The position numbers were made by a program, and so were the translations under genes. Of a stretch of DNA of 64,000 nucleotides, positions 33,386-60,894 are shown in pieces. The notes beneath the pieces are model-generated. The model searched no databases. It was not told the origin of the DNA and worked only from the letters and a program-made list of their open reading frames with translations. The stretch is from Pancytospora philotis (Eukaryota > Microsporidia): contig JALRLY010000269.1 in the NCBI GenBank assembly GCA_023647555.1, positions 1 through 64,000 on the forward strand, read 5' to 3'. Every line of letters starts with the position of its first letter. Position 1 is the stretch's first letter.

Positions 33386-36076
33386 ATGGCCGAGAACGAT
33401 CAGCAAGGCGCGCCAGAAGTCGCCAACATCAAGGTGCAGAGCGGCATCATGGAGCGTATCAAGCAGCTTAAGGGCAGCCTCGGGAATAATGAAAATGAGG
33501 GCACGGCAGGCGGGAGTTTTGATATGCCGTGGCCAAGTGCGAAACACGACCGTGCGGCAGCTGATGAAAGTTGCGGCATTGATTGTGCCGTCGCAACCCA
33601 AGCAGCCAGCGAAACCCCCAATGCTCGGACAGATTCTAGCAACACAATTGGCCGAGCAACGCAGCTGGGCCGGGTTGCGCTTCATGACATCGGCGAGTGC
33701 ATTCTGCTAGCGTGCGTTTCAGACGAGCGGGCCAGCGTAGCAGCGGACGATGCAGCATTGCAGGAGTATTTGGACAGCAGATATGGGCGCAAGTGGATGG
33801 CATACACCCTCTGCGCAGATGACAGAAAGCGCACCCTCGGAAGGCTGCAAGTCTATGGAATGGAGGGCTTCGATGTCGAAACTCCGCTTATGATCGCGCG
33901 GACGGCGAAGTACTGGCTCGAGATCTGCGGCGGCGGTGCGATCGTCATAGAGGTGAGCCCGAGCACGGCGTCTTACGTTTTGGTCACCCTGTGTGCGCTT
34001 CTGCGCTTCACGGGGAGGGCCATGTCCGTGGAGCTCGCGTACCACAGCCTTTTGAGGGCAAAGAACCTGCCGTTTGGAGCGAACGGCACGACTTTGCGCT
34101 ATATCAAGTACTTTGAGCATCTCCTGTCCTCCGGGCTGGGCGACAGGCCCCCGAGGATCGCCCTTAATCAGGTCATCATCACCGTCCCGACCCGCGCGCT
34201 GCTCGGCGAGCGCGGCGCGCCCGCACTGCGAATCGCCGGAACAGGCTCGAGTGTGACGATCACGAAAAACTGCTACTATGATGAGAACTTCATCATTTTC
34301 AGCTTCATTAGCAGCAAGACCACGAACGACATCGTGCTCGAGCTCGCGTGCCAGGGAGGTGACACAAAACGCCCTGTGATGCGTCTCGCTCTGAACACGT
34401 CCTTCTATCAGGCCGGTCTGTACCGCTTCACCAGCTCCGAGATCGAGCTCTGCGATGCTGGCCTGCGAGAGGCCCATCACGGCATCTTTTTCGACGTCAT
34501 ATACGCCGAGTCGAACAGCGGCGAAAGGCCCGGCGCGTATTCTACTGGGCCCAACGCTACGCTCGACATCAGTACGATGGCGGGGCACCTGTGCTGTCAG
34601 GCGGATCCTGCGGTGCGCAAGAGGCTTGCCGAGTGCGGATTCGGCGAGGCGCTTACGGAGTTCTTTGCGCGGCTCAGGTACACGCCGGAGGAGAGCAGAG
34701 AGATGATGGGCAGGCTGGAGGCGCTGGGCTACCGCAACATAGCCTGTGAACGGCCGCCGGTGGCTGTACCGAGGATCGAAGAAGTGAGCGATGCCCGGCC
34801 TGAAGTAGTGATCCAACCATCCGAAGAAGAGGCACCCGAGCCAGCGCTGTGCATGGACCCCGCTGGTGCGGGCAGTGCTTCGGAGCCTGTGGACCTCGCC
34901 TTCGTGCAGGACGCGGCCGTCAAGAAGACCAGCTGCGCAACGGTGGGACTCAGCCCGTTCGCCAAGAAAAGTAAAGCTCAGGAGCAGAAGCTGGCCGCGC
35001 CAACAGTCGTGGCGATCAAGCCGCTGCACTGGGCCCCGCTCACGAATACCGAGGAGACCATCTTCAAGGAGATCGAGAAGATGAGTGTCGATTTAGACCT
35101 TGCGCGGTTCGAGGAGCTCTTTTGCGAAAAGTCGCGGGAGGCGGCTGAGGAGGGCGTTTGTAGCGTGCGGCCGAGCAGAATGAAGGACCTGAAAAAGCTC
35201 TTCATCGTGTCTCTGTCTCTCCGGCACCTGGAGCTCAAGCACATCACCCCCGAGTCGCTCCCCGGGATAATCGCTGAAACGCCAAGGAACCTGACGCTCC
35301 AGGACCTGCAGAACATCGAGCGTGTGCTGATGACGTCTGAGGACCGCGAAGCGCTGGAGATGGCCGATCCGGCGAGCCTGTCAGATACCGAGCAGAAAGT
35401 GCTGCAGACCGCGCGTATAAAGCACATCGAGCAGACAGTGAGGCTGCTCGTGTTCGAGCGGCGGTTCTGCGAGGAGATCGCGCTGCACAGGGCCTCGCTT
35501 TTGCAGTTCGTCAGGCTCGCGAACGCGCTGCTCGACAGCACCGGCCTCAGAAAGATCATGTCGGTTGTGCTGCACGTGGGGAACGCGATCAACTTCGAGT
35601 ATTCGACGCGGAGGAAGAGGGCGGCGGGCTTCAAGCTGGAGACCCTGGACATGCTGGGCTCGTACTGCGGCAAGGGCGGTGTTACGCTCTTTGATTACGT
35701 GGTCGATACCGCGCAAAAGAACCGTGTGGAGGCTGAGCAGCTGCTTGCCCAGGGCGATGTGATTGCGCGAGCTAAAAATACCAACCTTGCGAGCATCCGG
35801 GAGGGACTGAACGAGCAGATCGCGCTCTACAAGGAGCAGCTCGCAGGGTTCAGCGTCTTCGACGGGGAGGAGCAGGCACGCTTCCGTTACATACTGGGGT
35901 GCGCGTGCAAGCAGCTCGCCGAGGCGTCGCAGCTGTACAAGGAGTGCACGATATACGCGAGCATTCTGAAGAAGAAGTTTGGCGAGCTGGAGACGCGGCC
36001 GGTCGAGGATCTGCTTGACATGCTCCACAGATTCATTGTGCGGCTCGAGGCAAAGTACAGAGAGATAAGAAGCTAG
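33386..36076 (+). CDS. Formin with PTEN-like pseudophosphatase and C2-like domains
   Basis: An 896-residue actin-assembly protein. The C-terminal FH2 domain (about 545-890) begins PLHWAPL, contains the helix with VVLHVGNAINFEY (family: LxxGNYMN) and RKRAAGFKLETLDML (family: GFxLxxLxxL). The N-terminal 95-260 follows the PTEN-like domain seen in plant class II and some protist formins: an LDSRYG start, MEGFDVETPLMIARTAKYWL, then VTLCALLRFTGRA and TLRYIKYFEHLLSSG. Where that domain would carry HCxxGxxR there is VSPSTASY (about 185-195), so the phosphatase is dead. A C2-like block follows to about 400. There are no polyproline runs before FH2, so FH1 is absent or minimal. RhoGAP is encoded at 60 kb. 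Confidence 0.85.
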   Translation: MAENDQQGAPEVANIKVQSGIMERIKQLKGSLGNNENEGTAGGSFDMPWPSAKHDRAAADESCGIDCAVATQAASETPNARTDSSNTIGRATQLGRVALHDIGECILLACVSDERASVAADDAALQEYLDSRYGRKWMAYTLCADDRKRTLGRLQVYGMEGFDVETPLMIARTAKYWLEICGGGAIVIEVSPSTASYVLVTLCALLRFTGRAMSVELAYHSLLRAKNLPFGANGTTLRYIKYFEHLLSSGLGDRPPRIALNQVIITVPTRALLGERGAPALRIAGTGSSVTITKNCYYDENFIIFSFISSKTTNDIVLELACQGGDTKRPVMRLALNTSFYQAGLYRFTSSEIELCDAGLREAHHGIFFDVIYAESNSGERPGAYSTGPNATLDISTMAGHLCCQADPAVRKRLAECGFGEALTEFFARLRYTPEESREMMGRLEALGYRNIACERPPVAVPRIEEVSDARPEVVIQPSEEEAPEPALCMDPAGAGSASEPVDLAFVQDAAVKKTSCATVGLSPFAKKSKAQEQKLAAPTVVAIKPLHWAPLTNTEETIFKEIEKMSVDLDLARFEELFCEKSREAAEEGVCSVRPSRMKDLKKLFIVSLSLRHLELKHITPESLPGIIAETPRNLTLQDLQNIERVLMTSEDREALEMADPASLSDTEQKVLQTARIKHIEQTVRLLVFERRFCEEIALHRASLLQFVRLANALLDSTGLRKIMSVVLHVGNAINFEYSTRRKRAAGFKLETLDMLGSYCGKGGVTLFDYVVDTAQKNRVEAEQLLAQGDVIARAKNTNLASIREGLNEQIALYKEQLAGFSVFDGEEQARFRYILGCACKQLAEASQLYKECTIYASILKKKFGELETRPVEDLLDMLHRFIVRLEAKYREIRS

Positions 36077-36363: not shown

Positions 36364-38664
36364 CTAAATATCCCTGAAATAGACGGAGTGCAGGCTGTCC
36401 TTGTCTTTGAATCCCTTGAGCAGCACCTCGCCCTCGTTCACGAGACTCACGAGCGGGTGGGAAATGTTCATACTACCAGACACAAAAATGCCGAGGCCGA
36501 GATCGGCGATGCGCACGAGCTTGTTCAGCGTGGGGCCGCGGAAAGACACCAGCCCATTCTCAGCCGTGATGAACGTCGTGTCCTGCGCAATCCCGATGCT
36601 CACGCCAACGCCTAGGCAGCGCAGCATCGCCTGCACACGCAGCGACCACAGCACCGAGGAGTTCACGCTGCTGAACCCGATGATGCAGAAGAGGTGGTTG
36701 CGCTCTATAAAATCGCCAGCAAATACCAGGACCAGGAACTCCAAAACCGCCATGATGTTGCCGACCTCGGTCTCAATGACCGGATTGCTGCGCCCCCTGT
36801 GGTGCAGCTTCAGATACAGCATGATGGGGAAGTGGTCTGTATTGGGCGAGAAGCGCAGACCATCGCGGTAGAAGCCCGTGCCAAAGTCCATATTGGCGAA
36901 ACCCAGCCCATCGCTCAGCGCAGGCTTTGGGAGCAGCGCATGCTCGGCAAGAACAGTGCTGTACGGCCGCGAAGAGCAGCGCCGATCGACGGTCTCGTCC
37001 ATCCGCAACCCCCAGACACTGCGGCTCAGAAGCTCCCTGGTGTTGGAGATGGCGAGCTGCAGACTCAGGGGACAGCGCAGCCCCGCATAGTCGAGCAAGC
37101 CCGGGGCATCGATGCGTATCGTGTCGACCTTGTGGCAGCGGCCCAGCATGTCCGCGCTGAACGGGCAAAAAACGGGGATCACATGCCACATGCCTGCGTT
37201 GTTGAAGACCACTGTGTCTCTCTCGTTGTCCAGTTTGTAGATCCCCGCGAAAGTCGAGTAGATCGCTGCCAGGCTGCTTACTCTGATCATTACTACAGTC
37301 TCGGTAACGAGGACGAAGAGGCAGCTGTCAGCCTGCTTTATTTCCCGCAGCCTTTCAATGATGGCCTCTGCAGTGTCGTTGAACCAGTCCAGCTCCCGAG
37401 TGCGCGCATTCGAAGCATTGATGTCGGCAGCCAGATCTGCGGCCAGACACGTGCCAGCCGCGTTCTGGTGGATCAGGACCAGTTTGACTGCCCGTCCGTT
37501 GAGCGCGAAGCTTGCTGTGTACTTCGTTATGAATCTGTGCCTGGTTTTACAACAATGAGGCTGGTTCCTAAGCGCGGCCGAGATAGGCGGCCACTCTGCA
37601 TGGTTGGCAATTTTGGCAGCGATCGGGTTGTACGTGAGACTGACCGACTTTAAACGGCTGAATTTTTCGGACCGGAAAAACTCGAAGTTGTTCACGCTGA
37701 GGCAGGCAGACTCAAGGGCGGGCGCGCGGATGTGCGTTAGAAAGTTGCCGGAGAGGTCAGCGTGCAGCAGCGCGCCCATAGCCGGGATGCGTGTGAAAAA
37801 GTTATTCCTGGCCCGCAGATGCGTGATACCCGTAAGCCGCGGCGGAAACCTACGCAGACCGCAGCTGTTGATGCTCAGCGCAGTGAGCCGGCAGCAATCA
37901 CCAAAGGATATTCCCTTTGTCCCGTCCGCTACTATTCTGCGTGCAGGACAGCTCACCGGGTGCGACACCTGCGTATTGGCAATCAAGAGCACATCTGCGC
38001 GCGCATCAACAGCACAGAGAGGGTTGTCAGAGAGATTGAGATGGCGATAGTGGTGGGCCGAGCGGAATATCCTGATTTGGTTGCGAGCGAGGACCAGCGC
38101 GCTGGCCCGGACGATGCAGCCGCCGAGCCTATTCCCGGACAAATTGCAGTAGTCGTACCGCTGTGCGCCGAAGAAGGCACTGCGCAATCCGGTGTTGGTT
38201 ATACGAATGTATCGGAGGCAATGCTGGCCCGATAGGTCGATGCTACGGAGAAAGACGTCCTGCACGGTCAGCTTTGTGAGGCGGCGCGGATCGAAGCCGT
38301 GCAGATGCAGCGCAGGATCTACGCGCGGCACGGCAACCAGTTTGTAACGCGACAAAGGGCGCAGAGCTAGACCACGGAATACGAACAGACGGTATAGCGG
38401 GGTCTCATCATCGCGCAGCATTCTGGCAGCGCTGGAGCTGCTCTGGAGCAGCAGCTCGCAAGGCTGGCCCAGCATTTTTTTGATCTCGGCCACGGTCGTT
38501 CTGAACGTTCCTTTGACGAGCGCCTCGGTCCCGCAGAGGGCGACAGGGACGGTGCACTCGGTCAGCTCGTTCGCTGCGTACCGCCTGGCGACAGAAGTCG
38601 TGCACACGAACCCGTTGAGTCTGTTGACCATCCTGGTCTCGCGCACCAGCACTCTCGACAGCAT
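36364..38664 (-). CDS. Degenerate fungal-type adenylyl cyclase (Cyr1-like): RA-LRR-PP2C-cyclase
   Basis: A 766-residue protein whose order of parts matches fungal Cyr1. Residues about 35-105 look like a Ras-association ubiquitin fold; about 120-340 carry leucine-rich repeats with LxxLxLxxNxL spacing; about 370-600 fit a decayed PP2C domain; about 608-766 fit a class III cyclase with VSIGIA and FRGPTLNKLVRIAD (family: VRIGIHxG and FGPxVNxAxR). The metal-binding aspartates are not where expected: the FTDI strand is replaced by MLYLKLHH and the GDxFM strand by NHLFCIIGF. Yeast Cyr1 is over 2,000 residues. It is therefore probably a catalytically dead scaffold. The start ATG follows CGACCCC. Confidence 0.66.
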   Translation of the reverse strand: MLSRVLVRETRMVNRLNGFVCTTSVARRYAANELTECTVPVALCGTEALVKGTFRTTVAEIKKMLGQPCELLLQSSSSAARMLRDDETPLYRLFVFRGLALRPLSRYKLVAVPRVDPALHLHGFDPRRLTKLTVQDVFLRSIDLSGQHCLRYIRITNTGLRSAFFGAQRYDYCNLSGNRLGGCIVRASALVLARNQIRIFRSAHHYRHLNLSDNPLCAVDARADVLLIANTQVSHPVSCPARRIVADGTKGISFGDCCRLTALSINSCGLRRFPPRLTGITHLRARNNFFTRIPAMGALLHADLSGNFLTHIRAPALESACLSVNNFEFFRSEKFSRLKSVSLTYNPIAAKIANHAEWPPISAALRNQPHCCKTRHRFITKYTASFALNGRAVKLVLIHQNAAGTCLAADLAADINASNARTRELDWFNDTAEAIIERLREIKQADSCLFVLVTETVVMIRVSSLAAIYSTFAGIYKLDNERDTVVFNNAGMWHVIPVFCPFSADMLGRCHKVDTIRIDAPGLLDYAGLRCPLSLQLAISNTRELLSRSVWGLRMDETVDRRCSSRPYSTVLAEHALLPKPALSDGLGFANMDFGTGFYRDGLRFSPNTDHFPIMLYLKLHHRGRSNPVIETEVGNIMAVLEFLVLVFAGDFIERNHLFCIIGFSSVNSSVLWSLRVQAMLRCLGVGVSIGIAQDTTFITAENGLVSFRGPTLNKLVRIADLGLGIFVSGSMNISHPLVSLVNEGEVLLKGFKDKDSLHSVYFRDI

Positions 38665-39111: not shown

Positions 39112-40194
39112 ATGCCGCAGCTCGTAACTATACTGCACTTTGTTCGCATACTTAGCGGGGCTGCTGTGGGGCCGATCCCCACAGAGAGCTTCACGGCTCT
39201 TGATCAGACCCTCGCGGAAAATTATATTGCTCATGTGCGGCAGTTCTTCGACCCCGATGTGTCCGCCATTGACTCGCTGCACCGCCCCGAGCCCAGAGGC
39301 GAGGATATTCCTCACGAGGATACCCAGCCAGATACATCCGCCTGCATACTTAGATCAAGCGCAGAGATGTATTGGGTTGGGCATGCTATCAGCGTCGGTT
39401 GGTTGCAATGCTATGCAAAGAGATTGGCTGATTATATTTCAGAGTTCCAGAATGCATTGCACACCATCAACGGCCTCAACTATGAGGGCGACACCAGCCA
39501 AGATACTAACGATGCCCAGATTGGTAATAGCGCTTCGCTCAACTTGGCCAGCCCAGATCCAAGCCTGCGGTATGGCGCTAAGCTCAGGGCTCTGTGCGAT
39601 GATCTCCGCCGCCGCCTCATCGTAGATATCCCCGTTGTACTTCATCATTTCGCCAGCATCACCATTGAGGCGTTGCAGCTTTATAACGTAGACCTACCCG
39701 ATTTTACTCTGGAAGGTATCGTTAAAGAGGGGGTTGAGTTTGTGCGAACATATCGTGCTCGCTCACCGAAACAAAGGCATATAATCTTTGCTCGCTACGT
39801 AAAGGCTGCCATTCAGAAGGCTTCTATGATAGTTACTAGATGCATTAGTTTGGCGGAAAGGCATAGAAAACTTGTCCTTGCGGATCCGGTATTCAAGCCC
39901 AATCGAGTGTACATGAGTTGCAACTCATTTACTCAACTAATGCAGTTTTTGGAGACGTACATGGGTGCGTTTTTTCTCGTGCAAGTTGAACTTTTTGAGT
40001 TAATTAGTCAAGATATTCATTATGATGACAAGGTATATAGGACGATGTGCGCCATGACTCTCAACAATCCTTTGGAGGAGAGCGGCTGCGCGGAAGAATT
40101 AGGGGCTGGTACTTTCAGTATGAGAAGAATACAGCAAACACAGACTCTGCTTACGAATATTCAGGATAAGCTTCGCACGTATTTGAGCCATTGA
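39112..40194 (+). CDS. Predicted secreted protein, family A copy 1
   Basis: A 360-residue protein, MPQLVTILHFVRILSGAAVG at the start being a weak signal peptide. Paralogue of the gene at 44699: shared blocks are FIAHxRQFFDP near residue 40, LRALCDDLR near 160, SFTQLMQFLETYMGA and LVQVELFELISQ near 285, and QTxTLLTNIxxKLR at the end. The body is helical, with no membrane anchor and no known domain. Codon use is less GC-biased than in the housekeeping genes. A 4-kb retrotransposon now separates it from its sister. Expanded lineage-specific secreted families of this kind in microsporidia are usually thought to act on the host; that is inference here. Confidence 0.75.
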   Translation: MPQLVTILHFVRILSGAAVGPIPTESFTALDQTLAENYIAHVRQFFDPDVSAIDSLHRPEPRGEDIPHEDTQPDTSACILRSSAEMYWVGHAISVGWLQCYAKRLADYISEFQNALHTINGLNYEGDTSQDTNDAQIGNSASLNLASPDPSLRYGAKLRALCDDLRRRLIVDIPVVLHHFASITIEALQLYNVDLPDFTLEGIVKEGVEFVRTYRARSPKQRHIIFARYVKAAIQKASMIVTRCISLAERHRKLVLADPVFKPNRVYMSCNSFTQLMQFLETYMGAFFLVQVELFELISQDIHYDDKVYRTMCAMTLNNPLEESGCAEELGAGTFSMRRIQQTQTLLTNIQDKLRTYLSH

Positions 40195-40663: not shown

Positions 40664-40759
40664 TGTCAAAGTTAGATTTATTGTTACTATCTACTGACGT
40701 CAGTTCGGTTGGCGGATACATAGGGGTAAAAGTTTTACGGACTTAAGAAGAGGACGACA
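40664..40759 (-). repeat. 3' LTR (96 bp)
   Basis: On the element's strand it reads TGTCGTCC...TTTGACA. It is identical at all 96 positions to the copy at 44435-44530. It also supplies the stop codon of the gag-pol frame. Confidence 0.93.
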
Positions 40760-43700
40760 CTCCCCCTCCCTTCGAAAGATCCAACTTTATATGGTGCTTA
40801 TTAATTCTATATTTACCCCTATTACTTTCTACGATGAAAGCATCCGGCAGGACTACATCCACTACAGTGAATCCTGGTAGCCAGCTGTTGGCAAGTTTCT
40901 TTCCGAGTTGCTCTTTGAAGATCAATACTCTGTCGCCGATTTTAATATCAGAACACCAGGGTGTTTTCCCTTTTTGGATATCACTTGCTCGGTAGTGTGG
41001 ACTGAATCTTGAGATGCTGTCAGTTATGCAACGAAGATCCACTTGCACATCGATCTTTTGGTGTACCTTATCTACTTTCATATTCGGAAGGATTCCAAAT
41101 TTCAAGATCGATGGGCATGTTTGGATTGCCCGGTGATAAGAAAAATTAACACCTTGCACTGCTGCAGCGACGTATAGGTCCCACGGTTTCTTACCGTAAT
41201 CACAAAGCTTTTTAAGCTTGTTAAAGAGTGTTTGATTCACTCTCTCTACAGCCCCTACGGTTTCGTGATGGCCTGGTGAACTGAAGGCATGCTCGATACC
41301 GTACTCGCTAAGTAGGCTTTTAAGCTCTAAATTATTGAACTCTAACCCATTATCAGTTAAAATCCTCTGAGGTGCCCCGTGTTTCTCAATGATGTGCTTC
41401 TTGACAAAAGCACAGATGTTGTACTTATCCTTCGCTTTAATGGGTACTGCTTCTACCCACTTGGTGTAGTGGTCGATTGCTACCAGCAAGAATCGATTTC
41501 CACGTTTAGTTGCATCGAGATAACCAACAACATCTATTTCCCACAGGTTATTAGGAGCGTCGGATACAATAGCTCGGTTCCCGCGGCGCTTGTTTTCATA
41601 CCCACTACGGAGGCAAATCATGCACTTATTAACATGCTCTTCAATATCTCGATACATTGAGGCCCATTTGTACTTTTGCTTAATCAGAAACTTCATCGCG
41701 TTCGCGCTACCATGGCCTAACGCTAAGTGGTAATCGTTGAGGATATCCTTGCGTTGTGCTACAGTGAGCAATGGTGTTTCGGTGTTCACTTGAATGTTAC
41801 CTACGTACCTGCTCATAGAGTCTGCGGGGTTGAGTTCGCCTTTAACATGCTCAATATCGTACTCATAATCCTGTAGCATTAAGGCGTAGCGGAGTTGTCT
41901 GCTCGTTGGGGATTTACAGTCCTGTAAGAATATGAGCGCTCTATGATCGGTTCGAAGTTTAAAGCTTCGTCCCAGTAGGTAATGACGGAAGTGTTCCAGC
42001 GATTTGACGATGCCGAGGAGTTCTAGATCAGTAGTTGAGTAGTTTTTTTGAGCCTTATCGAGCGCCCTACTGAAAGTATGAATAATACGTTCCTTGCCGT
42101 TATCGTCTGCCTGTGCTAGCACTGCGCCTATTGCTGTATGTGACGCATCAGTGATAACAATGAACTTCTTCGTGAAATCTGGGAGTGCTAATGAGGTACT
42201 TTCGCTAATAGCACCCTTGAGCTTGCTGAAACTCATTGCCTCATTTGGTCCCCATACAACCACCTTCGTACTTTTTTTCTGCTCTCCTTTTATCATGTTA
42301 TAGAGTGGGAGCGTGAGCTCAGTGAACTTCGGAATGAACTCACGATTATAATTCACCAAGCCGAGGAATGATCTGAGCTCCGATATATTGTCTGGCCGTT
42401 TGTATTCTTTGAGTGCCTTGATCTTATCAGGATCTGGTTTCACAATGCCGGCGCCAACAACAAATCCTAGTAGTTTAACCTCTGACTTCATAAAATTGCA
42501 TTTCTTCCTATTGAGTGCCATGTTAATGCCTTTGAGGCGGGAAAATACTACTTCTAAGTGTTTGATGTGTTCTTCAGCTGATTTGGAGAAGACAATGATA
42601 TCATCGAAATATGGCAGCACAAACGCCCTGTCTTTTTGGAATGCTCTATTCATAATTCTTTGGAATGTTGCAGGGGCATTGCAAAGCCCAAAGGGCATCC
42701 TGTTGAACTCGTATAGGCCGCCTTTCCAAGAGAAAGCGGTTTTGCTTCGGTCATCCGGGTTGATCTCAACCTGGTGATATCCGGACGTAGCATCGAGGGT
42801 GGAGAAAATGCGTGCCCCGCCCAGTGAATCAATAATCTCATCAATTCTTGGAATCGGATATTGGTCCCGGATGGTGATCTTATTCAACGGACGATAATCC
42901 ACGCACAGACGTAAACTTCCATCTTTTTTCTCAACGGGAACGATTCTTGATGACCAAGCACTTGTAGATTCTGAGATTATTCCAAGTTTTAGTAATTTTT
43001 GGATCTCTTGTTCAAGTGCCTCTTCGTATGCTATCGGTATACGCGAGTTGCCTGAGAAAAGTGGGCGGGCATTCCCTACGTCTATTGAGTGTGATCCGAG
43101 AGTGCACTTAATGTTCTGGTTAATCTCAGTTTGGAAGAGTTGTGCTTTTTGTTCAAGGAGGGCTTTCAGTAATAATCGGGCATCAAGCTGGTTAATAGCT
43201 ATGCCTTCTACTGGGGTGTTTGTTTGGCAAAAGGTTTTTTTTNNNNNNNNNNNNNNNNNNNNNNNNNNNNNNNNNNNNNNNNNNNNNNNNNNTTTTTTTT
43301 GCAGCAGCTCAGGGTGTTCAACAATTGCGTCTGCTCCAATAATGATGCGATCGGGCTTGTGTTTTGTGACTAAGCCCTTAATATTATACGTTTTCTCATC
43401 GATCTCTATTGGTATGCTGTTTGCCATGCCCACAATTTCAAGTTGTTGTCCACATGCTGAGCTGGCTTTGACGGCCGTTTTACGGATTTTGAGATCCGGT
43501 TCATGGGACAGGAATTTTTCGCAGATGACGGATGTGTCGGCTCCAGTGTCGATCAGGACCGGAACTCGCTGGCCGTTGATTGAGCCATCCCGCTTGAACG
43601 GGTTTACACGACAGTCGCTACTTGAATAGCGCTGCTCACTAACTGTATAAATCGTAGAGTTTTTATTCATGCCGTTTTCCTCTGTTAAATGCGTGTCCAC

Positions 43701-44492
43701 TAGTATCTGGTTAGCAGATACTGTGCGGGGAGTGAACGGTATACCCAATTGTTTCAGCTTACTTATAACCCAGCATTCACTCTCGGCGTGTCCGGGTCCG
43801 TGAAGGCGACACTGTTTTGCAGTACTCCTTTCAGCTGATTTCTTGGGCTTAAAGCTCCTATTCCCCATTCCCACAGCATTAACCTCTAGCTGATTTAAGT
43901 CAAACTCGGCTCTATTGAGAGCTTCAGATGTCTGGGGAAGTGATGGGAGGATGTCACTCGCGATAGTCTTGATGAACTCCTGCCAGCCCTTTGTTGCACG
44001 GACCATTTGACGAATACTTGGCCCGAATTGAGCAGGCATCCTACGCCCAGTGAGGTACTTTAAGGCATCCCCGCTGACATATCCTGCTTGGGCTAGACTG
44101 TTAAGATCTTTCATCAGTGTTAATAGCTCGCTCTGTGATGTAATTTCACTAGGTGCCATGACACGCTCCAGTGCCTTCTCGATCACTAGTTGACCAGAAA
44201 AACGTATGATAAATGATGACGTGAGTTCAGCTGCTGTCATATCTGGATTGCTGGCTACCATATCGGCGGCCCATTGCAAGGCGATGTCCTGTAGACAGCA
44301 GACAAAAATTTTCACGCGACGTTCTGGAGCGACGTCGTTAGCGTCGGCCCGTAACGTGAATGTCTGAAGCCATGCATTGGCGTCCTCATCGGGCAGACCC
44401 CGAAACGGCTTTACGATCTTTATCATCATCGCCATGTCAAAGTTAGATTTATTGTTACTATCTACTGACGTCAGTTCGGTTGGCGGATACAT
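40743..44492 (-). CDS. Gag-Pol polyprotein of Ty3/gypsy element
   Basis: A single frame of up to 1,249 residues. Gag-like capsid covers about 20-210 with a CxxHGxxHxxxxC knuckle at 228-240; protease has DTGA at 315-318; RT has a YFDD box near 628; RNase H has TDASHTAIGA near 777; integrase has an HHCC finger near 900-935, then D,D,E with TDNGLEF near 1045. No chromodomain follows. The frame opens at an ATG inside the 5' LTR (44492); a second in-frame ATG at 44435 uses the last LTR base as its A and may be the true start if transcripts begin within the LTR. The gap at 43243-43292 is placed in frame but its real length is unknown. Confidence 0.93.
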   Translation of the reverse strand: MYPPTELTSVDSNNKSNFDMAMMIKIVKPFRGLPDEDANAWLQTFTLRADANDVAPERRVKIFVCCLQDIALQWAADMVASNPDMTAAELTSSFIIRFSGQLVIEKALERVMAPSEITSQSELLTLMKDLNSLAQAGYVSGDALKYLTGRRMPAQFGPSIRQMVRATKGWQEFIKTIASDILPSLPQTSEALNRAEFDLNQLEVNAVGMGNRSFKPKKSAERSTAKQCRLHGPGHAESECWVISKLKQLGIPFTPRTVSANQILVDTHLTEENGMNKNSTIYTVSEQRYSSSDCRVNPFKRDGSINGQRVPVLIDTGADTSVICEKFLSHEPDLKIRKTAVKASSACGQQLEIVGMANSIPIEIDEKTYNIKGLVTKHKPDRIIIGADAIVEHPELLQKKXXXXXXXXXXXXXXXXXKKTFCQTNTPVEGIAINQLDARLLLKALLEQKAQLFQTEINQNIKCTLGSHSIDVGNARPLFSGNSRIPIAYEEALEQEIQKLLKLGIISESTSAWSSRIVPVEKKDGSLRLCVDYRPLNKITIRDQYPIPRIDEIIDSLGGARIFSTLDATSGYHQVEINPDDRSKTAFSWKGGLYEFNRMPFGLCNAPATFQRIMNRAFQKDRAFVLPYFDDIIVFSKSAEEHIKHLEVVFSRLKGINMALNRKKCNFMKSEVKLLGFVVGAGIVKPDPDKIKALKEYKRPDNISELRSFLGLVNYNREFIPKFTELTLPLYNMIKGEQKKSTKVVVWGPNEAMSFSKLKGAISESTSLALPDFTKKFIVITDASHTAIGAVLAQADDNGKERIIHTFSRALDKAQKNYSTTDLELLGIVKSLEHFRHYLLGRSFKLRTDHRALIFLQDCKSPTSRQLRYALMLQDYEYDIEHVKGELNPADSMSRYVGNIQVNTETPLLTVAQRKDILNDYHLALGHGSANAMKFLIKQKYKWASMYRDIEEHVNKCMICLRSGYENKRRGNRAIVSDAPNNLWEIDVVGYLDATKRGNRFLLVAIDHYTKWVEAVPIKAKDKYNICAFVKKHIIEKHGAPQRILTDNGLEFNNLELKSLLSEYGIEHAFSSPGHHETVGAVERVNQTLFNKLKKLCDYGKKPWDLYVAAAVQGVNFSYHRAIQTCPSILKFGILPNMKVDKVHQKIDVQVDLRCITDSISRFSPHYRASDIQKGKTPWCSDIKIGDRVLIFKEQLGKKLANSWLPGFTVVDVVLPDAFIVESNRGKYRINKHHIKLDLSKGGGVSSSS
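40760..40773 (-). other. Polypurine tract
   Basis: On the element's strand GAAGGGAGGGGGAG ends exactly at the first base of the 3' LTR. This is where plus-strand DNA synthesis is primed and it confirms that the LTR really begins there. Confidence 0.85.
43243..43292. other. Assembly gap (50 N) flanked by T runs
   Basis: Fifty Ns are bounded by at least eight Ts on each side (A runs on the coding strand), inside gag-pol between protease and RT. The round length indicates a placeholder, most likely over a long homopolymer. Confidence 0.95.
44421..44434 (-). other. Possible primer binding site
   Basis: On the element's strand TGGCGATGATG begins one base after the 5' LTR's terminal sequence GAC-A; TGG next to an LTR is the usual complement of a tRNA CCA end. 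The priming tRNA cannot be identified and the site overlaps the gag start. Confidence 0.4.
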
Positions 44493-44698: not shown

Positions 44699-45796
44699 AT
44701 GCTGCGGCTTGTGGCCACACTAAACTTCGCTGTTATGCCTAGTGCGGTGGTTGACGATGAGCTCATTGCAGAGGAATTCATTGCGCATGCGCGGCAGTTC
44801 TTCGACCCCCGTGCCCCAGCTGCTTATTCGCTGCTTCAGATCGCGCCCAGAGTCAAGGACGTTGTCTTCAAGGAGACCCAGTTGACCAAAACCAAGTTTA
44901 CGTTTGCAAGATCAAGCGCAAAAGAGTATCTATCTGTGCATAACAATAATGTCGATATACTGAACCATTATGCGGGAAATTTAGTCAATTTTATCTCGAT
45001 GATCCATTGTACACTGTTCCTCTGCCCTATTGCCGATTTCAAGCGGACTGACTACTCCAGTCAAGGCATTAACGGTGCCACGGCCAGTGACTGCATTTCA
45101 CTCGAGTCTGCCAGCCGGGTAGCAAGCAAGAGACTCAGGGCACTGTGCGATGATCTCCGCGACTACTTCATCCCGGAAATGACCTGTGCACTTAACAGCT
45201 TCGTCAGTATCTGCGTCCAGGAGCTGCAGTTTTACGGTGTAGTCGGGCCCGAGTTCACTCTGCCGGGCTTCATGTTCAAATGGCACCAAACCCAACAAAA
45301 GTATAAGTCTCTATCACCGGCAAGTATGAATATCTGCCTTGCGTGCGACATAAAAGATGCCATTGAGGGGGCTTTCATTATAGCAGCTCAGTGCGATGGC
45401 CTGGCTGAAGAGAACCAGAAAGTCGCCGGCGCTGATAACTATTGCGCTTCTAGCCGACTATGCTTAGAACGCGTTTCGTTCAGTCAACTGCTGCAGTTTA
45501 TAGAAACGTACATGGGGGCTATTTTGCTCGTGCAGGTTGAACTTTTCAAGCTGGAGAGCCAGAGCATCGCTTTCAGCGACGAGGTGTATAGAATTATGTA
45601 TGCCAAATCTTGCAATGGCATTCTGGCGGGGATGGTCTCCGCGGAAGAAGCGGAGACTGATGATTTTGCTATAAAGCAAATTTGCGATGCTCATTTGGAG
45701 ACGATTCAGCAGACAAGGACACTGCTTACGAATATTCGGAGTAAGCTCCGCTTTCGTTTAGACCACATCCACAGCACGAAGGCTGCATCTAATTGA
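44699..45796 (+). CDS. Predicted secreted protein, family A copy 2
   Basis: A 365-residue paralogue of the gene at 39112. MLRLVATLNFAVMPSAVVDD is a weak signal peptide. Shared blocks are FIAHARQFFDP, LRALCDDLRDYF, SFSQLLQFIETYMGA followed by LVQVELFKLES, and QTRTLLTNIRSKLR. The middle third is divergent. A few cysteines (about nine) are scattered, which suits an exported protein. Promoter block and 24-nt spacing are shared with copy 1, so the duplication includes the regulatory region. No known domain. Confidence 0.75.
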   Translation: MLRLVATLNFAVMPSAVVDDELIAEEFIAHARQFFDPRAPAAYSLLQIAPRVKDVVFKETQLTKTKFTFARSSAKEYLSVHNNNVDILNHYAGNLVNFISMIHCTLFLCPIADFKRTDYSSQGINGATASDCISLESASRVASKRLRALCDDLRDYFIPEMTCALNSFVSICVQELQFYGVVGPEFTLPGFMFKWHQTQQKYKSLSPASMNICLACDIKDAIEGAFIIAAQCDGLAEENQKVAGADNYCASSRLCLERVSFSQLLQFIETYMGAILLVQVELFKLESQSIAFSDEVYRIMYAKSCNGILAGMVSAEEAETDDFAIKQICDAHLETIQQTRTLLTNIRSKLRFRLDHIHSTKAASN

Positions 45797-48996: not shown

Positions 48997-50016
48997 CTAA
49001 GTAGATTCATTGCTGGAACCAGCTGGATTAGCCTTCTCTGCGTTGCAGATTTCAAATAGCTCCATGATCTTTCGGGCAGCAGATAACTGCTTTAGATTAC
49101 GCTCCGAATATATATTGTACCAGTAAGTGACGTTCTTCAGACTGTTATACATTTTGGTTATTTCTGCATCAAGCTCCGCAGCGGGCGGTGCACACGGTCT
49201 TTGTTGCCCAGTAGCGGCGTCCTTCTCAATTAGTTCTGATATGGGCTTTAGGCGGTCAAACAATGCCTTATAATGATTGTATATGCCCTGAATATCAAAA
49301 TTAATGAGCAATAAACTGCTTGTCACATCACAGACCAGGCTGGTCGCAAACTTTAGGCACAGAAAGAAATCATTTTTCAAACTTGGGGAGACATTGCCAT
49401 TTTTGCGCATAAATATTTTCATTCTGCAGCGCAGTTTGCCGCTGGGGATCTGGATATTCTGATTGAATGGCCAAATATATTCAAGGATAAACTTGTTTGG
49501 CCGATGTACAGTAGTTTTCAGAAGCCTGCCGCGATCGTTATCATAGTTCCCGGGGAAAGGTATCTGAAGGCTAGTTAGGTACCCCTCAAGGGGTGCTAGT
49601 AGGCCATTGATAAGGCCAAATAGATTGCTGAAATATACTAGGAAGCTGTTGAAATCGCGTCGCTGCTTTGCAATAGTATCCACGAGGTAGTTTTTATAAG
49701 CGTCGCTTTCTCTAGTGGATGAAATCGCCAAGAAATAATGGAAATCTTCGTAAGTTACTGTCTCCTGTAAATTCATAAGATTTTCCTGTATCTCTTCATA
49801 CACGCTCGCAATCTTCTTATATTCGTTGGTTGTTGCGGTCATGCCAGCATCGAGCTCGCGCACGGTCGATTCCAAATGTTTGTAGATCTCTTTGAGCTCT
49901 GTTATCCCGAGAAACGCAGAAAGACGTCTCATGTTAGCGCTCGCATTGGCAACCGTAATTTCCACGGGACTTGCGGCCACAGACGCGGCCAGTACGCCCA
50001 GTCGGCAAATGCGCAT
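48997..50016 (-). CDS. Predicted secreted protein, family B copy 1
   Basis: A 339-residue protein beginning MRICRLGVLAASVAASPVEI, a good signal peptide with a small-residue cleavage region. Almost entirely helical. It is closest to the gene at 50374 (shared LESTVRELDAGMTA/LETTVHKLEDGMTA, ISSTRESDAYKNYL/ISCARESDAYRNYL, LQIPFPGN, CDVTSxLLLI). No known domain, no anchor. Lower GC than the core genes. The ATG follows AAAATTTTTTGCAGGGGCACCC. A tandem, secreted, lineage-specific family suggests a role at the host interface, which cannot be shown from sequence. Confidence 0.75.
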   Translation of the reverse strand: MRICRLGVLAASVAASPVEITVANASANMRRLSAFLGITELKEIYKHLESTVRELDAGMTATTNEYKKIASVYEEIQENLMNLQETVTYEDFHYFLAISSTRESDAYKNYLVDTIAKQRRDFNSFLVYFSNLFGLINGLLAPLEGYLTSLQIPFPGNYDNDRGRLLKTTVHRPNKFILEYIWPFNQNIQIPSGKLRCRMKIFMRKNGNVSPSLKNDFFLCLKFATSLVCDVTSSLLLINFDIQGIYNHYKALFDRLKPISELIEKDAATGQQRPCAPPAAELDAEITKMYNSLKNVTYWYNIYSERNLKQLSAARKIMELFEICNAEKANPAGSSNEST

Positions 50017-50072
50017 GGGTGCCCCTGCAAAAAATTTTAATTTAAAACAGAGAAAGCGTAACAGTCATCAGC
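50017..50072 (-). promoter_or_regulatory. Conserved upstream block, family B copy 1
   Basis: The region before the ATG (AAATTTT block, then AAAACAGAGAAAGCGTAAC and a TGATCAGC-like end) matches the same positions upstream of copy 2 with few changes. Confidence 0.6.
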
Positions 50073-50373
50073 CAGGGGTATGCAGACGCTCGGTGAATTT
50101 TCTGTTACTGAAGTCAAAAATAAGTATATTGGTGCTTATCTATTATATTTATCCTGTTCAATTTGAGCTGAACTCGTAGTTGTTGCGCAGTTCAGCTCAG
50201 GCTCGCATACTAAAATGATCAACTTGCTGAGTTTTAAGAAGTAGTTTAGAAAAGTCCCGTTCTACTCCATCGCATCATGTACTAGAAAGTAGGATTCAGA
50301 GATAAAATAGGAGCAAAGCGCAGAAGGCAAGCATGCCCACAAACTAACGCCGATAATATTTCAATGCGCTGCC
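50073..50373. other. Intergenic region between family B copies
   Basis: About 300 bp, AT-rich, no separate gene seen. Confidence 0.5.
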
Positions 50374-51396
50374 TCAAGCAGATTTATTGTTGATACTAGC
50401 CGGATTAACCGACTCTGCGCCACAGCTCCCAAGTAGCTCCATAGTCTTCTGAGCATCGGATAGATACATTAGATTACGCTCCGCATATTTAGGGTGGAGG
50501 TTGGTTATATCTCTCAGACTATTATACATCTCAGCTATATTAATATTGAGCATCCTGGCAGAGGGTGGGCAGTGCCTATATTCCTCGTTTACCGTCTCTT
50601 CCATAATTAACCTCGATGTGGGCTTCAGATAACTAAACAGTGTGCTGTATAGTACGTACATATGCTGCAGGTCATTAGTGATAAGCAGCAGATTACTTGT
50701 CACGTCACAGACTTGGCTGACCACATATTTTAGACACAAGAAGAAATCGCTTATCACATCCGGGGGGTTGTTATTTCTAAAGCGCGCAAATCTTGACATT
50801 CTACAGCATAATTTTATGCAGGGCATCTTTATTTCCAGATTATACGGCCAAATGTATTTGAGAATCATTTTGTTTGGCCGAGACACTTTAGTTTTTAGCA
50901 GCCCGGTCCGCTGCTTTTTATCGAAGTTCCCGGGAAGAGGTATCTGCAGCTCATCCGCGTAGTTCTGCAGCGGAGTCAGGAGCTCCTTGATGAGGACAAA
51001 CAGCTCGTCGAAATATGTCAGATATTCCTCAAAATCGCAGCGCTGCTTTTCAATAGACTCGAAGAGATAATTCCTATAGGCATCGCTCTCTCTAGCGCAT
51101 GATATTGCAAAGAAATAATAAAAATCTTCGCAGCTCACTGCCTTCTGTGAATTCGTGTAGTCCTCGTGTATCGTTTCGTACCAGCTTGTGACTCTCTTGT
51201 TTTCATTGGTTATCGCGGTCATGCCGTCCTCGAGCTTGTGCACGGTCGTTTCTAGACATTTGTAAATACTCTTCAGCTCTGGTATTTCAAGCAACGAAGA
51301 GAGGCGTCTGATGCTAGCGAACGCATTTGATCCCGTAATTTTCACGGGTTTTGCGACCGCCAGAGCTGCCAAAACGCTCAGTCGGTAAATACGCAT
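50374..51396 (-). CDS. Predicted secreted protein, family B copy 2
   Basis: A 340-residue sister of copy 1, starting MRIYRLSVLAALAVAKPVKI (signal peptide). Alignable along its whole length, including LQIPLPGNFDKK, RPNKMILKYIWPYN and SQVCDVTSNLLLI. The divergence is highest in the C-terminal third. The strong full-length similarity and matching flanks show a fairly recent tandem duplication. Function unknown. Confidence 0.75.
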   Translation of the reverse strand: MRIYRLSVLAALAVAKPVKITGSNAFASIRRLSSLLEIPELKSIYKCLETTVHKLEDGMTAITNENKRVTSWYETIHEDYTNSQKAVSCEDFYYFFAISCARESDAYRNYLFESIEKQRCDFEEYLTYFDELFVLIKELLTPLQNYADELQIPLPGNFDKKQRTGLLKTKVSRPNKMILKYIWPYNLEIKMPCIKLCCRMSRFARFRNNNPPDVISDFFLCLKYVVSQVCDVTSNLLLITNDLQHMYVLYSTLFSYLKPTSRLIMEETVNEEYRHCPPSARMLNINIAEMYNSLRDITNLHPKYAERNLMYLSDAQKTMELLGSCGAESVNPASINNKSA

Positions 51397-51454
51397 GGGC
51401 TCCGTTGCAAAAATTTTTAAATTAAAACAGAGAAAGCGTAACCGTGATCAGCGA
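51397..51454 (-). promoter_or_regulatory. Conserved upstream block, family B copy 2
   Basis: AAAAATTTTTGCAACGGAGCCC before the ATG and the AAAACAGAGAAAGCGTAAC segment further out match copy 1. Confidence 0.6.
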
Positions 51455-51784
51455 AGTGTGTATACAGAATCTTTATCAATTTTCTGATGCATATATCAGA
51501 GTTAGACATATCAGTGCTAGTCCATCCATTTCAGGACGTAGCTGGACCCTTGGCTCGACTCAACTCGGGCTCGCATATTTGAAATGGTTTTACAGCGCCA
51601 TGTTGTATATTTACTCAGTGGTCGCACCACGCCGCCCATTGCTACTGTTTTGGTAGCACTAGTTGTACGCATATGGTGCGGACGCCAGTGCGAAGATGAA
51701 ATAAGCTGCAAACTGCTCAGCAAAAAAAAACCTCGAATATGAATGCGCAGAACAGCATTTAACGCTAATTTATTTTAAATTAAG
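51455..51784. other. Intergenic region
   Basis: About 330 bp; a run of nine As near 51722 is the only feature noted. Confidence 0.5.
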
Positions 51785-52750
51785 TCAATTTTTTGCCAAT
51801 AAATCAAGTTCTTTGAACTTAGACATATGCTCGCGTCCCTCTGACAGGTGCTGGTTCGTTTTTACTTTATAATGCGCCCAGAATTTTGATAATTTGCCCA
51901 ACAGTATCCACGTGTCTTCTACCTGCGCAGACGGCAGGCCCGGCTCCTTGTATCGAACGACTTCGGCCAGCGCCGATACGCACTCCAGCTGCGCGAACAT
52001 CTGGTTATTTTTCTCATACGCTCGGCGGATCAACGAAACAACAAACAGGAAGCGTCTTATCACATCGCAGGCATCAGCCAGCATGACTTTTAGGGAAAAG
52101 AGATAATTGTAACAGACTCCAGGAGGGGGCGTCTCTTTAAGTTTCTCAACGCTACCTATCGTGTACCGCAGCTTTAAAAATGGCTCTCTAATATCCTCGT
52201 TATACTGCTCAGCGAGAGCACCAAGCAGCCAGTCTAGCAGAAAAGGGTCGATGCGTAATAGCATAGAATCGATTGGTCTGTAGCTGGCCGGTAGCTGTAT
52301 CCCCTGCTCATTCAAGTGTTCTGTGACTAGCTTTATAAGCTCCTTGATGGGCAAGAATAGCGCACTGAATGATGATAATGAATCTTCGAAAGCCTGCAGC
52401 TGTTCCATGGACCTTATTCGGAGTTCCTGGTACTCGCTCGCGCGCTTGCAAGTTGAATTTATTAGACGCGCATTATGTATGTAGTAAAGCTCGTCACTCC
52501 ACGGTTTCAGTATTTCCTGGTCAGTTGTTTCGAATAACCGCCTGACGCTTCGGTCCTCCTCTTCCAACCTTGCCATTCCGTCTAGGAGCTTCTCACCGAT
52601 ATCGACCAGCAAACCGTAGGAGCCGCGAAGCTTAGAGAGAGATGCGTCTTCAGCCAGTTGTTTGACGTTGGCTACCGCATTCAGAACTGTGCGCGGCAGC
52701 GTTGCCGTGGCTATAGAACCCACTAGCAAGCCTAACTGGCGAGCGCGCAT
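51785..52750 (-). CDS. Predicted secreted protein, family B copy 3 (divergent)
   Basis: A 321-residue protein from the ATG at 52750, beginning MRARQLGLLVGSIATATLPR (signal peptide). It keeps the family B plan: an LLDGMARLEEE block, a cysteine in the RLINSTCKRASEY segment, LNEQGIQLPASYRP, a LRYTIG segment and ACDVIRRFLFVVSLIRRAYEK before a variable tail. Identity with copies 1 and 2 is low, so this is an older duplicate. The start follows CAAAATTTTGCGGCCCCACCC. Confidence 0.7.
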   Translation of the reverse strand: MRARQLGLLVGSIATATLPRTVLNAVANVKQLAEDASLSKLRGSYGLLVDIGEKLLDGMARLEEEDRSVRRLFETTDQEILKPWSDELYYIHNARLINSTCKRASEYQELRIRSMEQLQAFEDSLSSFSALFLPIKELIKLVTEHLNEQGIQLPASYRPIDSMLLRIDPFLLDWLLGALAEQYNEDIREPFLKLRYTIGSVEKLKETPPPGVCYNYLFSLKVMLADACDVIRRFLFVVSLIRRAYEKNNQMFAQLECVSALAEVVRYKEPGLPSAQVEDTWILLGKLSKFWAHYKVKTNQHLSEGREHMSKFKELDLLAKN

Positions 52751-52762
52751 GGGTGGGGCCGC

Positions 52763-52770
52763 AAAATTTT
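52763..52770 (-). promoter_or_regulatory. AAAATTTT block, family B copy 3
   Basis: AAAATTTT followed by GCGGCCCCACCC and ATG; one of the most typical start signals in the window. Confidence 0.55.
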
Positions 52771-53034
52771 GCAAGTCATCAGTAAGCAGGGTTCAGAATG
52801 CGCAAAGCAGCTAGCAATTTGTTGCCCCTTACAGTGGGCTGTTTACGGCCATCGATAAGCGATGTACCTTGGAGCCATTCATAAACGCATATCGTAACAC
52901 CTGGTTTAGTCCGGGTACCTGGTGGCTTTGCATCTGCAAAAAAAACCGCACATAGCATTCACAGCAATCACTATGGGCTGAATGGCAAATCTACAATAAC
53001 AACGCATCTTTCAAAGAGCTAACCGACTATTTAA

Positions 53035-54156
53035 CTAAATGCGAGTGCTGATAGCATCAACCACGGTAGCTTCAACCAAATAATCCTTTTCCTCCGTATA
53101 CGTTCCAGGCAGTGCATCATCTGGTACGTCCTCTGGCTCGCGCTCGCAGTAGTCGTAATATAAAGTGCTATCCAGCGTTAAATCAGGCACGACTGCCTGT
53201 TTGTAGTTGGAAGGAAGCTCTAATAATTTTAGATGTTTCGGGAACAATCTAAACCCTCTAGCGTTGGTCCTGCGGTATTCGTTGAAGAGTTCCTTGGCCT
53301 TGCTTAGATAAGCACGCGCATTTATTCTTTCTACCATGAACGCCAGCGCACACGACGTGTCGCGATTATCGCTCGCCGACTCAGCGACCGCTTCCAACGA
53401 TGCCTTGAGCTGGTCGAACAACGGAAGGGATTCCTCGTACGCGTGCTGTAGCTGCGAAGCAACCTTGAGGTACCAGCTCGTTACTTCACAGGCAGAGGAA
53501 AGCACCGTGACCATCCTCCATAGATGGTCGGTGCAATTTTGCGTGTGTGCATCGATAGCAGCAATATATTTAGCCCCATCTAGCCTATACCGTAGCCTGA
53601 TAAGCGGTATGATGATAGTGTGGTTAACACGCCTGCAGTAATAGCCGAGTAGACCCTTCGCCTTGAAATCCAGCAGCTTCCGGTCATAGAATGTAAAGCT
53701 GGGCGAGATGGGCTCGTAATGCTTGTCCACGTAGTCTGTGAGCAGCACTACGGTCTTCTCGAAAGGTGCTAGCAATTTAGCCAAACAGCCCAGATAATGC
53801 TCGAACACGCACTTGCAGGTATCGTTCATGTAGAATAGATTCCAGTGCTCAGCACAGAACGGAGCTGCCAATGCGTCAACAGAGCCAGTGCCATTCAGGC
53901 CATCCGGCCGCCGATCTATTGCAGCTTGTACCCAGCGGTACATGGATACAAAGCTATCATGCTCTGATTGCAGTCTGTCCATGCCGTCGTGGAGTTCGCT
54001 GATGGTGATCCCCAGTAAGTCGTTAGCCGTCTTAAATTCAGGCACAACGGACTGCAGAGGATCCTCCAGGACCCTAGCTAGCCAGCCTTTGGGTAGGTAT
54101 CGATACGGCCTGGAATGCGCTAGAATGTCTACCACATCCAGAAGCATAGTGCGCAT
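53035..54156 (-). CDS. Predicted secreted or intracellular protein, family B copy 4 (divergent)
   Basis: A 373-residue protein from the ATG at 54156. It has the family B order: ELHDGMDRLQSEHDSFVSMYRW, a cysteine pair in MNDTCKCVFEHYL, a RLRYRLDG segment, and SACEVTSWYLKVASQLQHAYEE with LFDQLKASLEAV. The N terminus MRTMLLDVVDILAHSRPYRY is a poor signal peptide, so export is uncertain. A C-terminal extension of about 60 residues, acidic and with several Tyr, is unique to this copy. It is the most diverged member in the array. Confidence 0.65.
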   Translation of the reverse strand: MRTMLLDVVDILAHSRPYRYLPKGWLARVLEDPLQSVVPEFKTANDLLGITISELHDGMDRLQSEHDSFVSMYRWVQAAIDRRPDGLNGTGSVDALAAPFCAEHWNLFYMNDTCKCVFEHYLGCLAKLLAPFEKTVVLLTDYVDKHYEPISPSFTFYDRKLLDFKAKGLLGYYCRRVNHTIIIPLIRLRYRLDGAKYIAAIDAHTQNCTDHLWRMVTVLSSACEVTSWYLKVASQLQHAYEESLPLFDQLKASLEAVAESASDNRDTSCALAFMVERINARAYLSKAKELFNEYRRTNARGFRLFPKHLKLLELPSNYKQAVVPDLTLDSTLYYDYCEREPEDVPDDALPGTYTEEKDYLVEATVVDAISTRI

Positions 54157-60093: not shown

Positions 60094-60894
60094 CTAGTGA
60101 TTTTGTAGAATATCAACCGCCAGATTCACATCATTCATGTCAACCGCAATGACCGTCTTGAAGAACTGGACCGCGCGGGGAATCACATCCAAGCTGTTGA
60201 AGGCCTCCTGCGGCGTGAGGGTGAGGCAGAAGATGTTGCCGATGCTCTCGTAGCCTATCCCGTTCACGACCTTATTGGCAGCTACAAGGCTGAACAGCTT
60301 CTTAAGCTCAATAAACAGCCGGCGCTCGTCGTCGGTCATCGCAAACACCAGGTACTTGCAGAGCAGCTCGGTATGCTGCTCCTCGCCCTGCTGGATGCTA
60401 TCAAAAATCCTGCCCAGGTGGATTATATCGAACAGCCCGTTCATCACCTCTCTGATGTAGTACTTGAGGGCGGAGCCGAGCTCGAGCGGCGTGTACCGTG
60501 CAAAGTCAAAGGGCATATTGGTGTGGGTTCTGTCGTGCTCTATTATCTCGCCTACAATCTGCACGGTGGTGGCCACCTTTCCCTCGCGTCTAAAAATGCC
60601 GGGTGTTTCAGGCGCGACCACGCGCAGATACTCGACCAGCTCATAGACCGTTGGCGTGATGGCTCGCTGGACCGCCCTGGGCCCGCCGGTGCAGAAGAAG
60701 ATCTGCTGGATGAGCGTGCGCTCCACGAGCAGGCTGGATGCCTTCTGGCGGAGCAGGGCGCGCTTGATCGACGAGATCCCCAGATAGGCGTTCGGAACCA
60801 CCGAGATCCCCTTGCCGGGCCTCAGCGTGCTCGTGTTTATTCTCGACGAGTAGAAAAGCTGGTTGGATGCGGAGCTGTGGGCCTTCGTCTCCAT
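60094..60894 (-). CDS. RhoGAP-domain protein
   Basis: A 266-residue protein, mostly one RhoGAP domain. VYELVEYLRVVAPETPGIFRREG contains the arginine finger (GIFR), SALKYYIREVMNGLF matches the LKxFLRELPEPL helix, and YESIGNIFCLTLTP matches the NLAxVFAPTL block. An N-terminal Ser/Thr-rich part of about 60 residues has no known domain. It should switch off a Rho/Rac/Cdc42-type GTPase and so works upstream of actin; the formin at 33 kb is a plausible pathway partner, though nothing in the sequence links them directly. Confidence 0.83.
   Translation of the reverse strand: METKAHSSASNQLFYSSRINTSTLRPGKGISVVPNAYLGISSIKRALLRQKASSLLVERTLIQQIFFCTGGPRAVQRAITPTVYELVEYLRVVAPETPGIFRREGKVATTVQIVGEIIEHDRTHTNMPFDFARYTPLELGSALKYYIREVMNGLFDIIHLGRIFDSIQQGEEQHTELLCKYLVFAMTDDERRLFIELKKLFSLVAANKVVNGIGYESIGNIFCLTLTPQEAFNSLDVIPRAVQFFKTVIAVDMNDVNLAVDILQNH

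Follow-up and report, generated by a model that had tools for sequence, protein, structure and literature searches.

The window analysed here is a 64,000-nucleotide stretch of contig JALRLY010000269.1 from the microsporidian Pancytospora philotis, whose genome assembly comprises 3.68 Mb in 83 contigs. Positions 33386–36076 of the forward strand form a single open reading frame (ORF) of 896 amino acids without an internal stop. The encoded protein combines a PTEN-like N-terminal half, made up of a protein tyrosine phosphatase (PTP)-like part and a C2-like part, with a C-terminal formin homology 2 (FH2) domain. Sequence comparison confirms the N-terminal half as a predicted PTP–C2 module of the PTEN/auxilin type, beyond a chance match. 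The fusion of a PTEN-C2-like module to FH2, proposed in the original prediction for this locus, is borne out by profile matches to PTEN and auxilin and by the Pfam FH2 match.

Of the relatives recovered, the nearest is PAEPH01_2330 (annotated as partial) from the microsporidian Pancytospora epiphaga, with 36% identity across 842 alignment columns, the N-terminal half included. An FH2-half alignment led to the third protein of the set, Nosema granulosis Formin-like protein 3, which is 23% identical to the window protein. The FH2-half search also gave one grass and one fish formin (P0004 and P0005, E-values (E) of 1.3e-3 and 2.5e-3), which were left unused. In the whole-protein and FH2-half searches, scoring was confined to the candidates with the most words in common (7998 and 7999, respectively). 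Among those scored, the whole-protein search returned the window protein itself and the P. epiphaga protein only. A search with residues 655–800 of P0002 returned only P0002. The suggested survey for the same module elsewhere succeeded in P. epiphaga and N. granulosis, but reached no rozellid or further microsporidian formin among the candidates scored. NCBIfam yielded no match for P0001 or P0002.

Evidence for the module from single proteins is weak. The Pfam PTEN_C2 model matches residues 276–355 of the window protein at E 0.0057, below the cut-off, and across the 3.68 Mb genome the formin gene is its only match at E <= 10 (E 0.001, also below the cut-off). The module was therefore tested with profiles, a two-protein N-terminal profile (A2) and a three-protein profile that adds N. 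granulosis (A5), each searched against the PDB. A2 recovered five PTEN sequences at E 2.8e-4 to 6.2e-4, followed by one unrelated chain at E 0.87. With A5, six distinct sequences out of 177,635 were returned at E <= 10, namely five PTEN (best E 5.5e-7) and one auxilin (E 4.3e-4), and nothing else. The same six of six PTEN/auxilin sequences were matched by a profile of the PTP halves alone (E 4.9e-4 to 2.8e-3), and the N. granulosis protein exceeds the Pfam cut-offs for both PTEN_C2 (E 6.2e-8) and FH2. Neither Drf_GBD nor Drf_FH3 was reported at E <= 10 in the window protein, under filters that drop most matches above ~0.1. The proposed profile check of the N-terminus has matched PTEN and auxilin, with no GBD/DID match.

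A second formin in the genome, L002, behaves differently: its N-terminal 410 amino acids found no PTEN in the PDB (seven matches, all at E 0.13 or worse), indicating that PTEN likeness is not general to formin N-termini here. Searched as a whole protein against Pfam, L002 shows no Drf domain at E <= 1 and no recognised PTEN domain. The PTP-SAK model has one match in the genome, which lies outside the formin gene, falls under the cut-off and covers model positions 72–107 only.

The phosphatase site of the module is eroded. In the A2 profile alignment, the PTEN sequence IHCKAGKGRT is aligned against IEVSPSTASY (residues 188–197), and the same loop columns hold VEACNDKGPL and IEINYNFVTL in the two relatives. 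An alignment-independent motif scan found neither HC(x5)R nor CxxGxxR over the full length of any of the three proteins. A more relaxed pattern, Cx5R, is present twice in the window protein (residues 143 and 592) and twice in that of P. epiphaga (residues 555 and 763), each time away from the loop, and is missing from N. granulosis. Replacement of the HCxxGxxR loop by VSPSTASY, as first read from the sequence, is upheld by both the profile alignment and the missing motif in all three proteins. The absence of the catalytic signature from the entire set makes phosphatase activity very unlikely, suggesting that the N-terminal module is no longer an enzyme but a pseudophosphatase. Loss of the catalytic arginine has been described in plant class II and prasinophyte formins, and loss of the histidine in stramenopile formins (Grunt 2008, PMC2386819).

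In the C-terminal half, Pfam FH2 covers residues 540–837 at E 1e-26, its score of 94.4 bits exceeding the cut-off of 34.8; the domain matches formins in the PDB (best Formin-like protein 3, E 3.7e-8), and GNAIN...GFKLETL can be read directly in the sequence. No FH1 proline-rich region precedes it, in agreement with the original prediction: proline runs never exceed two residues in the window protein, in either relative or in L002. The richest 20-residue segment among the 150 residues before FH2 holds four prolines in the window protein, three in P. epiphaga, three in N. granulosis and five in L002. In ordinary formins, FH1 binds profilin, as described by Pruyne (2017, PMC5628938).

Domain identity, the lost catalytic signature and the missing FH1 tract are read directly from sequence, and are conserved in the three related proteins. 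Pairwise identities, given in the order window–P. epiphaga, window–N. granulosis and P. epiphaga–N. granulosis, are 29/20/27% for the PTP half, 40/20/22% for the C2 half, 30/23/28% for the post-C2 helical segment, 26/10/16% for the linker, 41/29/32% for FH2 and 42/23/24% for residues 841–896. Faster divergence of the PTP half was considered as a sign of lost catalysis and dropped, as PTP identity falls below C2 identity in the closest pair only (one of three). Within the post-C2 segment, a helical stretch at approximately residues 419–451, FGEALTEFFARLRYTPEESREMMGRLEALGYRN, is common to the three proteins and has no family match; a role as a small element for regulation or dimerisation is conceivable.

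Table 1. Coordinates of the PTEN-formin gene, its parts, and other features
Feature	Position	Strand	Evidence or remark
PTEN-formin ORF	33386..36076	+	uninterrupted, 896 aa
N-terminal tail, residues 1-89, variable	33386..33652	+	gapped in three-protein alignment; AlphaFold predicted local distance difference test score (pLDDT) 21-29
PTP-like half, residues 90-250, putative pseudophosphatase	33653..34135	+	five PTEN and one auxilin sequence matched by the PTP-half profile of three proteins
Degenerate P-loop VSPSTASY, residues 190-197, replacing CKAGKGRT of PTEN	33953..33976	+	profile alignments
C2-like half, residues 260-376	34163..34513	+	
Post-C2 helical segment, residues 395-465, conserved, without family match	34568..34780	+	helices predicted at low confidence
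Linker at the expected place of FH1, residues 466-538, without proline tract	34781..34999	+	proline count
FH2 domain, residues 540-837	35003..35896	+	Pfam over cut-off; PDB formins
C-terminal helical extension beyond Pfam FH2, residues 838-896	35897..36073	+	helical in low-confidence model
Second formin of the genome, L002	G000:C11, 1486-3738	-	750 aa, FH2 E 5.4e-20
MscS-type mechanosensitive channel protein	3159-4802	-	E 6.4e-6, over cut-off
Leucine-rich-repeat protein, 766 aa, convergent with formin gene	36364-38664	-	LRR_1 E 0.00096, PHLPP RA E 0.046, both under cut-off
Gag-pol-type retroelement ORF: protease, reverse transcriptase, RNase H, integrase	40743-44492	-	contains masked stretch
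RhoGAP domain protein	60094-60894	-	E 4.3e-12

Several features surround the formin gene. The layout of the leucine-rich-repeat protein recalls PHLPP or fungal adenylate cyclase. It matches nothing in the PDB at E <= 1 and nothing in NCBIfam, and its identification as a cyclase was rejected, with no Guanylate_cyc match anywhere in the genome. GC content dips to 0.445 at the retroelement, which is flanked on both sides by two sets of ORFs of ~320–375 amino acids (39112–40194 and 44699–45796 on the forward strand, 48997–54156 on the reverse). By eye, these sets resemble small multigene families whose N-termini are leader-like.

The wider genome offers a small set of actin and phosphoinositide components. 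It encodes two formins, one actin-family match and a cofilin match. The Actin model should also recognise Arp2 and Arp3. Searches of the genome for P34-Arc and, with both the Pfam model and the yeast protein, for profilin gave no match, but the control genomes supplied no positive control for any of them. Cofilin, comparable to profilin in domain size, was detected. The single actin-family match and the lack of a P34-Arc match suggest that the two formins may be the only actin nucleators of this genome. One PIP5K locus and two loci with PI3/PI4-kinase domains are also present, and together with actin and cofilin they make phosphoinositide ligands and an actin substrate plausible. In addition, the genome contains 12 Ras-superfamily matches, and the RhoGAP protein of the window is possibly part of Rho signalling to actin.

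By analogy with characterised plant formins, the microsporidian PTEN-formin is probably an actin assembler anchored to a membrane or phosphoinositide by its pseudophosphatase module. We infer its actin activity, membrane binding, profilin independence and cellular site as follows. As in homologous domains, FH2 would dimerise, cap barbed ends and nucleate or elongate actin. The PTP–C2 module would hold the formin at the membrane, its C2 face and remnant PTP pocket binding phosphoinositide or phospholipid as in the moss formin For2A, whose PTEN domain binds phosphoinositides, especially PtdIns(3,5)P2 (PMC3817587). The lack of FH1 would mean no feed of profilin–actin to the barbed end, and therefore elongation from free actin monomers. 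Other actin tasks would presumably be covered by the PTEN-free second formin.

The module has 34 basic (KR) against 34 acidic (DE) residues in the window protein and 39/41 and 41/51 in the relatives. The absence of net positive charge speaks against a simple electrostatic anchor, keeping alive a reading in which the PTP–C2 module is a protein–protein scaffold, its dead pocket or C2 face binding a partner, such as a Rho-family GTPase, phosphoprotein or vesicle coat, that recruits or restrains FH2. The few basic residues in the CBR3-like loop point the same way, as do the Ras-superfamily matches and the RhoGAP gene. So does auxilin, one of the profile matches, which has a role in vesicle uncoating (PMC2386819). 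In the characterised plant formins, however, the PTEN domain serves to target lipids or membranes, that of rice FH5 being required for localisation to the chloroplast envelope (PMC3817587), and no partner protein of the module is known. On balance, a scaffold appears unlikely, and membrane or phosphoinositide anchoring by the pseudophosphatase remains the preferred reading.

The original prediction left open whether the architecture is ancestral or acquired by transfer. PTEN-formins have been described in a chytrid, in choanoflagellates and in the microsporidian Encephalitozoon intestinalis (Eint_101200), and one has been inferred in the unikont/bikont ancestor (Pruyne 2017, PMC5628938). These PTEN-formins and the layout shared by Pancytospora and Nosema support ancestry as the better of the two scenarios, and transfer has found no positive support. 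Horizontal gain of the gene by the microsporidian line, with a stramenopile or plant-like organism as one conceivable donor, in place of inheritance from an opisthokont PTEN-formin, might be suggested by the patchy distribution of the group, since only GBD/FH3 formins were found in the fungi sampled by Grunt (2008, PMC2386819), and by the clustering of fungal and choanoflagellate PTEN domains with heterokont ones reported by Pruyne (PMC5628938). The chytrid and choanoflagellate occurrences count against it, as does the third-codon-position GC content of the module (0.755), which lies within the range of six other window genes (0.740 to 0.952), at its low end. The layout common to Pancytospora and Nosema makes a recent horizontal transfer unlikely, but it bears on recent transfer only; an older entry may have preceded the split of the two lines. 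Overall, transfer appears quite improbable.

Several results also weigh against a PTEN-type N-terminus itself. Against the PDB, the C2 half alone found no PTEN (one unrelated match, E 0.72) and the N. granulosis N-terminus alone found no PTEN (three antibody chains), and no Pfam PTP family matched any of the three PTP halves. AlphaFold models from two-sequence alignments reached pLDDT values of 39.7 at full length and 46.3 for residues 90–420, too weak to carry a fold, and Foldseek returned no significant match to the PDB. These weak models did not yield a GBD/DID or unrelated fold either; their predicted secondary structure is alpha/beta followed by beta rather than all-helical, and the best VIA rows for the predicted beta-sandwich are PTEN-type C2. 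An N-terminus unrelated to PTEN and matched by chance, be it a mixed alpha/beta region with an unrelated beta-sandwich or a divergent GBD/DID, would suit the weak single-protein and structural results, but is highly improbable given the PTEN/auxilin matches of the A5 and PTP-half profiles, the PTEN_C2 match over cut-off in N. granulosis, the colinear order of the parts and the lack of a PTEN match in the L002 N-terminus.

The microsporidian PTEN-formin layout was already known, and the window gene is a further example rather than a new kind. The novelty implied by the original prediction does not stand, because the predicted PTEN-like domain of Eint_101200 is already in print (Pruyne 2017, PMC5628938), the only description of a microsporidian PTEN-formin among the literature matches listed, with most subscription journals outside the scope of that search. 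Added here are the layout in Pancytospora and Nosema, a catalytic signature wholly lost from three of three proteins, and the absence of FH1. The two additional genera and the uninterrupted ORF make it more credible that a PTEN-formin once existed in fungi and outlasted the severe genome loss of microsporidia; the loss of the phosphatase site in all three proteins suggests targeting as the role that was retained. Should the genome really hold just two formins, neither with FH1, and lack both Arp2/3 and profilin, it would offer a usefully minimal actin system. A more speculative proposal, which we regard as tentative and somewhat unlikely, builds on the lack of a detectable profilin, Arp2/Arp3 paralogue or P34-Arc, two of the searches (profilin and P34-Arc) having had no positive control. 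It holds that microsporidia retain a derived PTEN-formin without FH1 as one of only two actin assemblers, that phosphoinositides place profilin-free assembly through a dead phosphatase, and that the PTEN site of formins has here been eroded independently for a third time.

Compared with known systems, PTEN and auxilin (PDB 1D5R and 3N0A) align colinearly with both the PTP half and the C2 half in the profile searches; unlike them, the window protein lacks the catalytic signature and is fused to FH2. PAEPH01_2330 and the N. granulosis protein, whose source names are merely hypothetical or formin-like, share the colinear PTP–C2–FH2 order, the absent signature and the lack of FH1. Eint_101200, compared here by its published description only, is likewise microsporidian and has a predicted PTEN-like domain and a divergent FH2, which grouped with PHCF, possibly as an artefact (PMC5628938). 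The chytrid SPPG_06651_SPPG_06650 and the choanoflagellate PTSG_07580 share a PTP–C2 module N-terminal to FH2, but these opisthokont PTEN-formins are described as PTP–C2–FH1–FH2, whereas the window protein has no FH1. A formin with a PTEN domain has also been described in Naegleria fowleri (PMC8296547). Plant class II formins similarly fuse a PTEN-like domain with an eroded site to FH2, a likeness of layout and site. Table 2 of Grunt (PMC2386819) lists FH1 as present in land plant formins, and the site in class II has lost its arginine, whereas the window protein lacks FH1 and has lost the whole signature. The window protein is not filed among plant class II formins; by its predicted PTEN-like domain, the naming feature of the group, it is classified as a PTEN-formin that departs from the typical layout in FH1 only.
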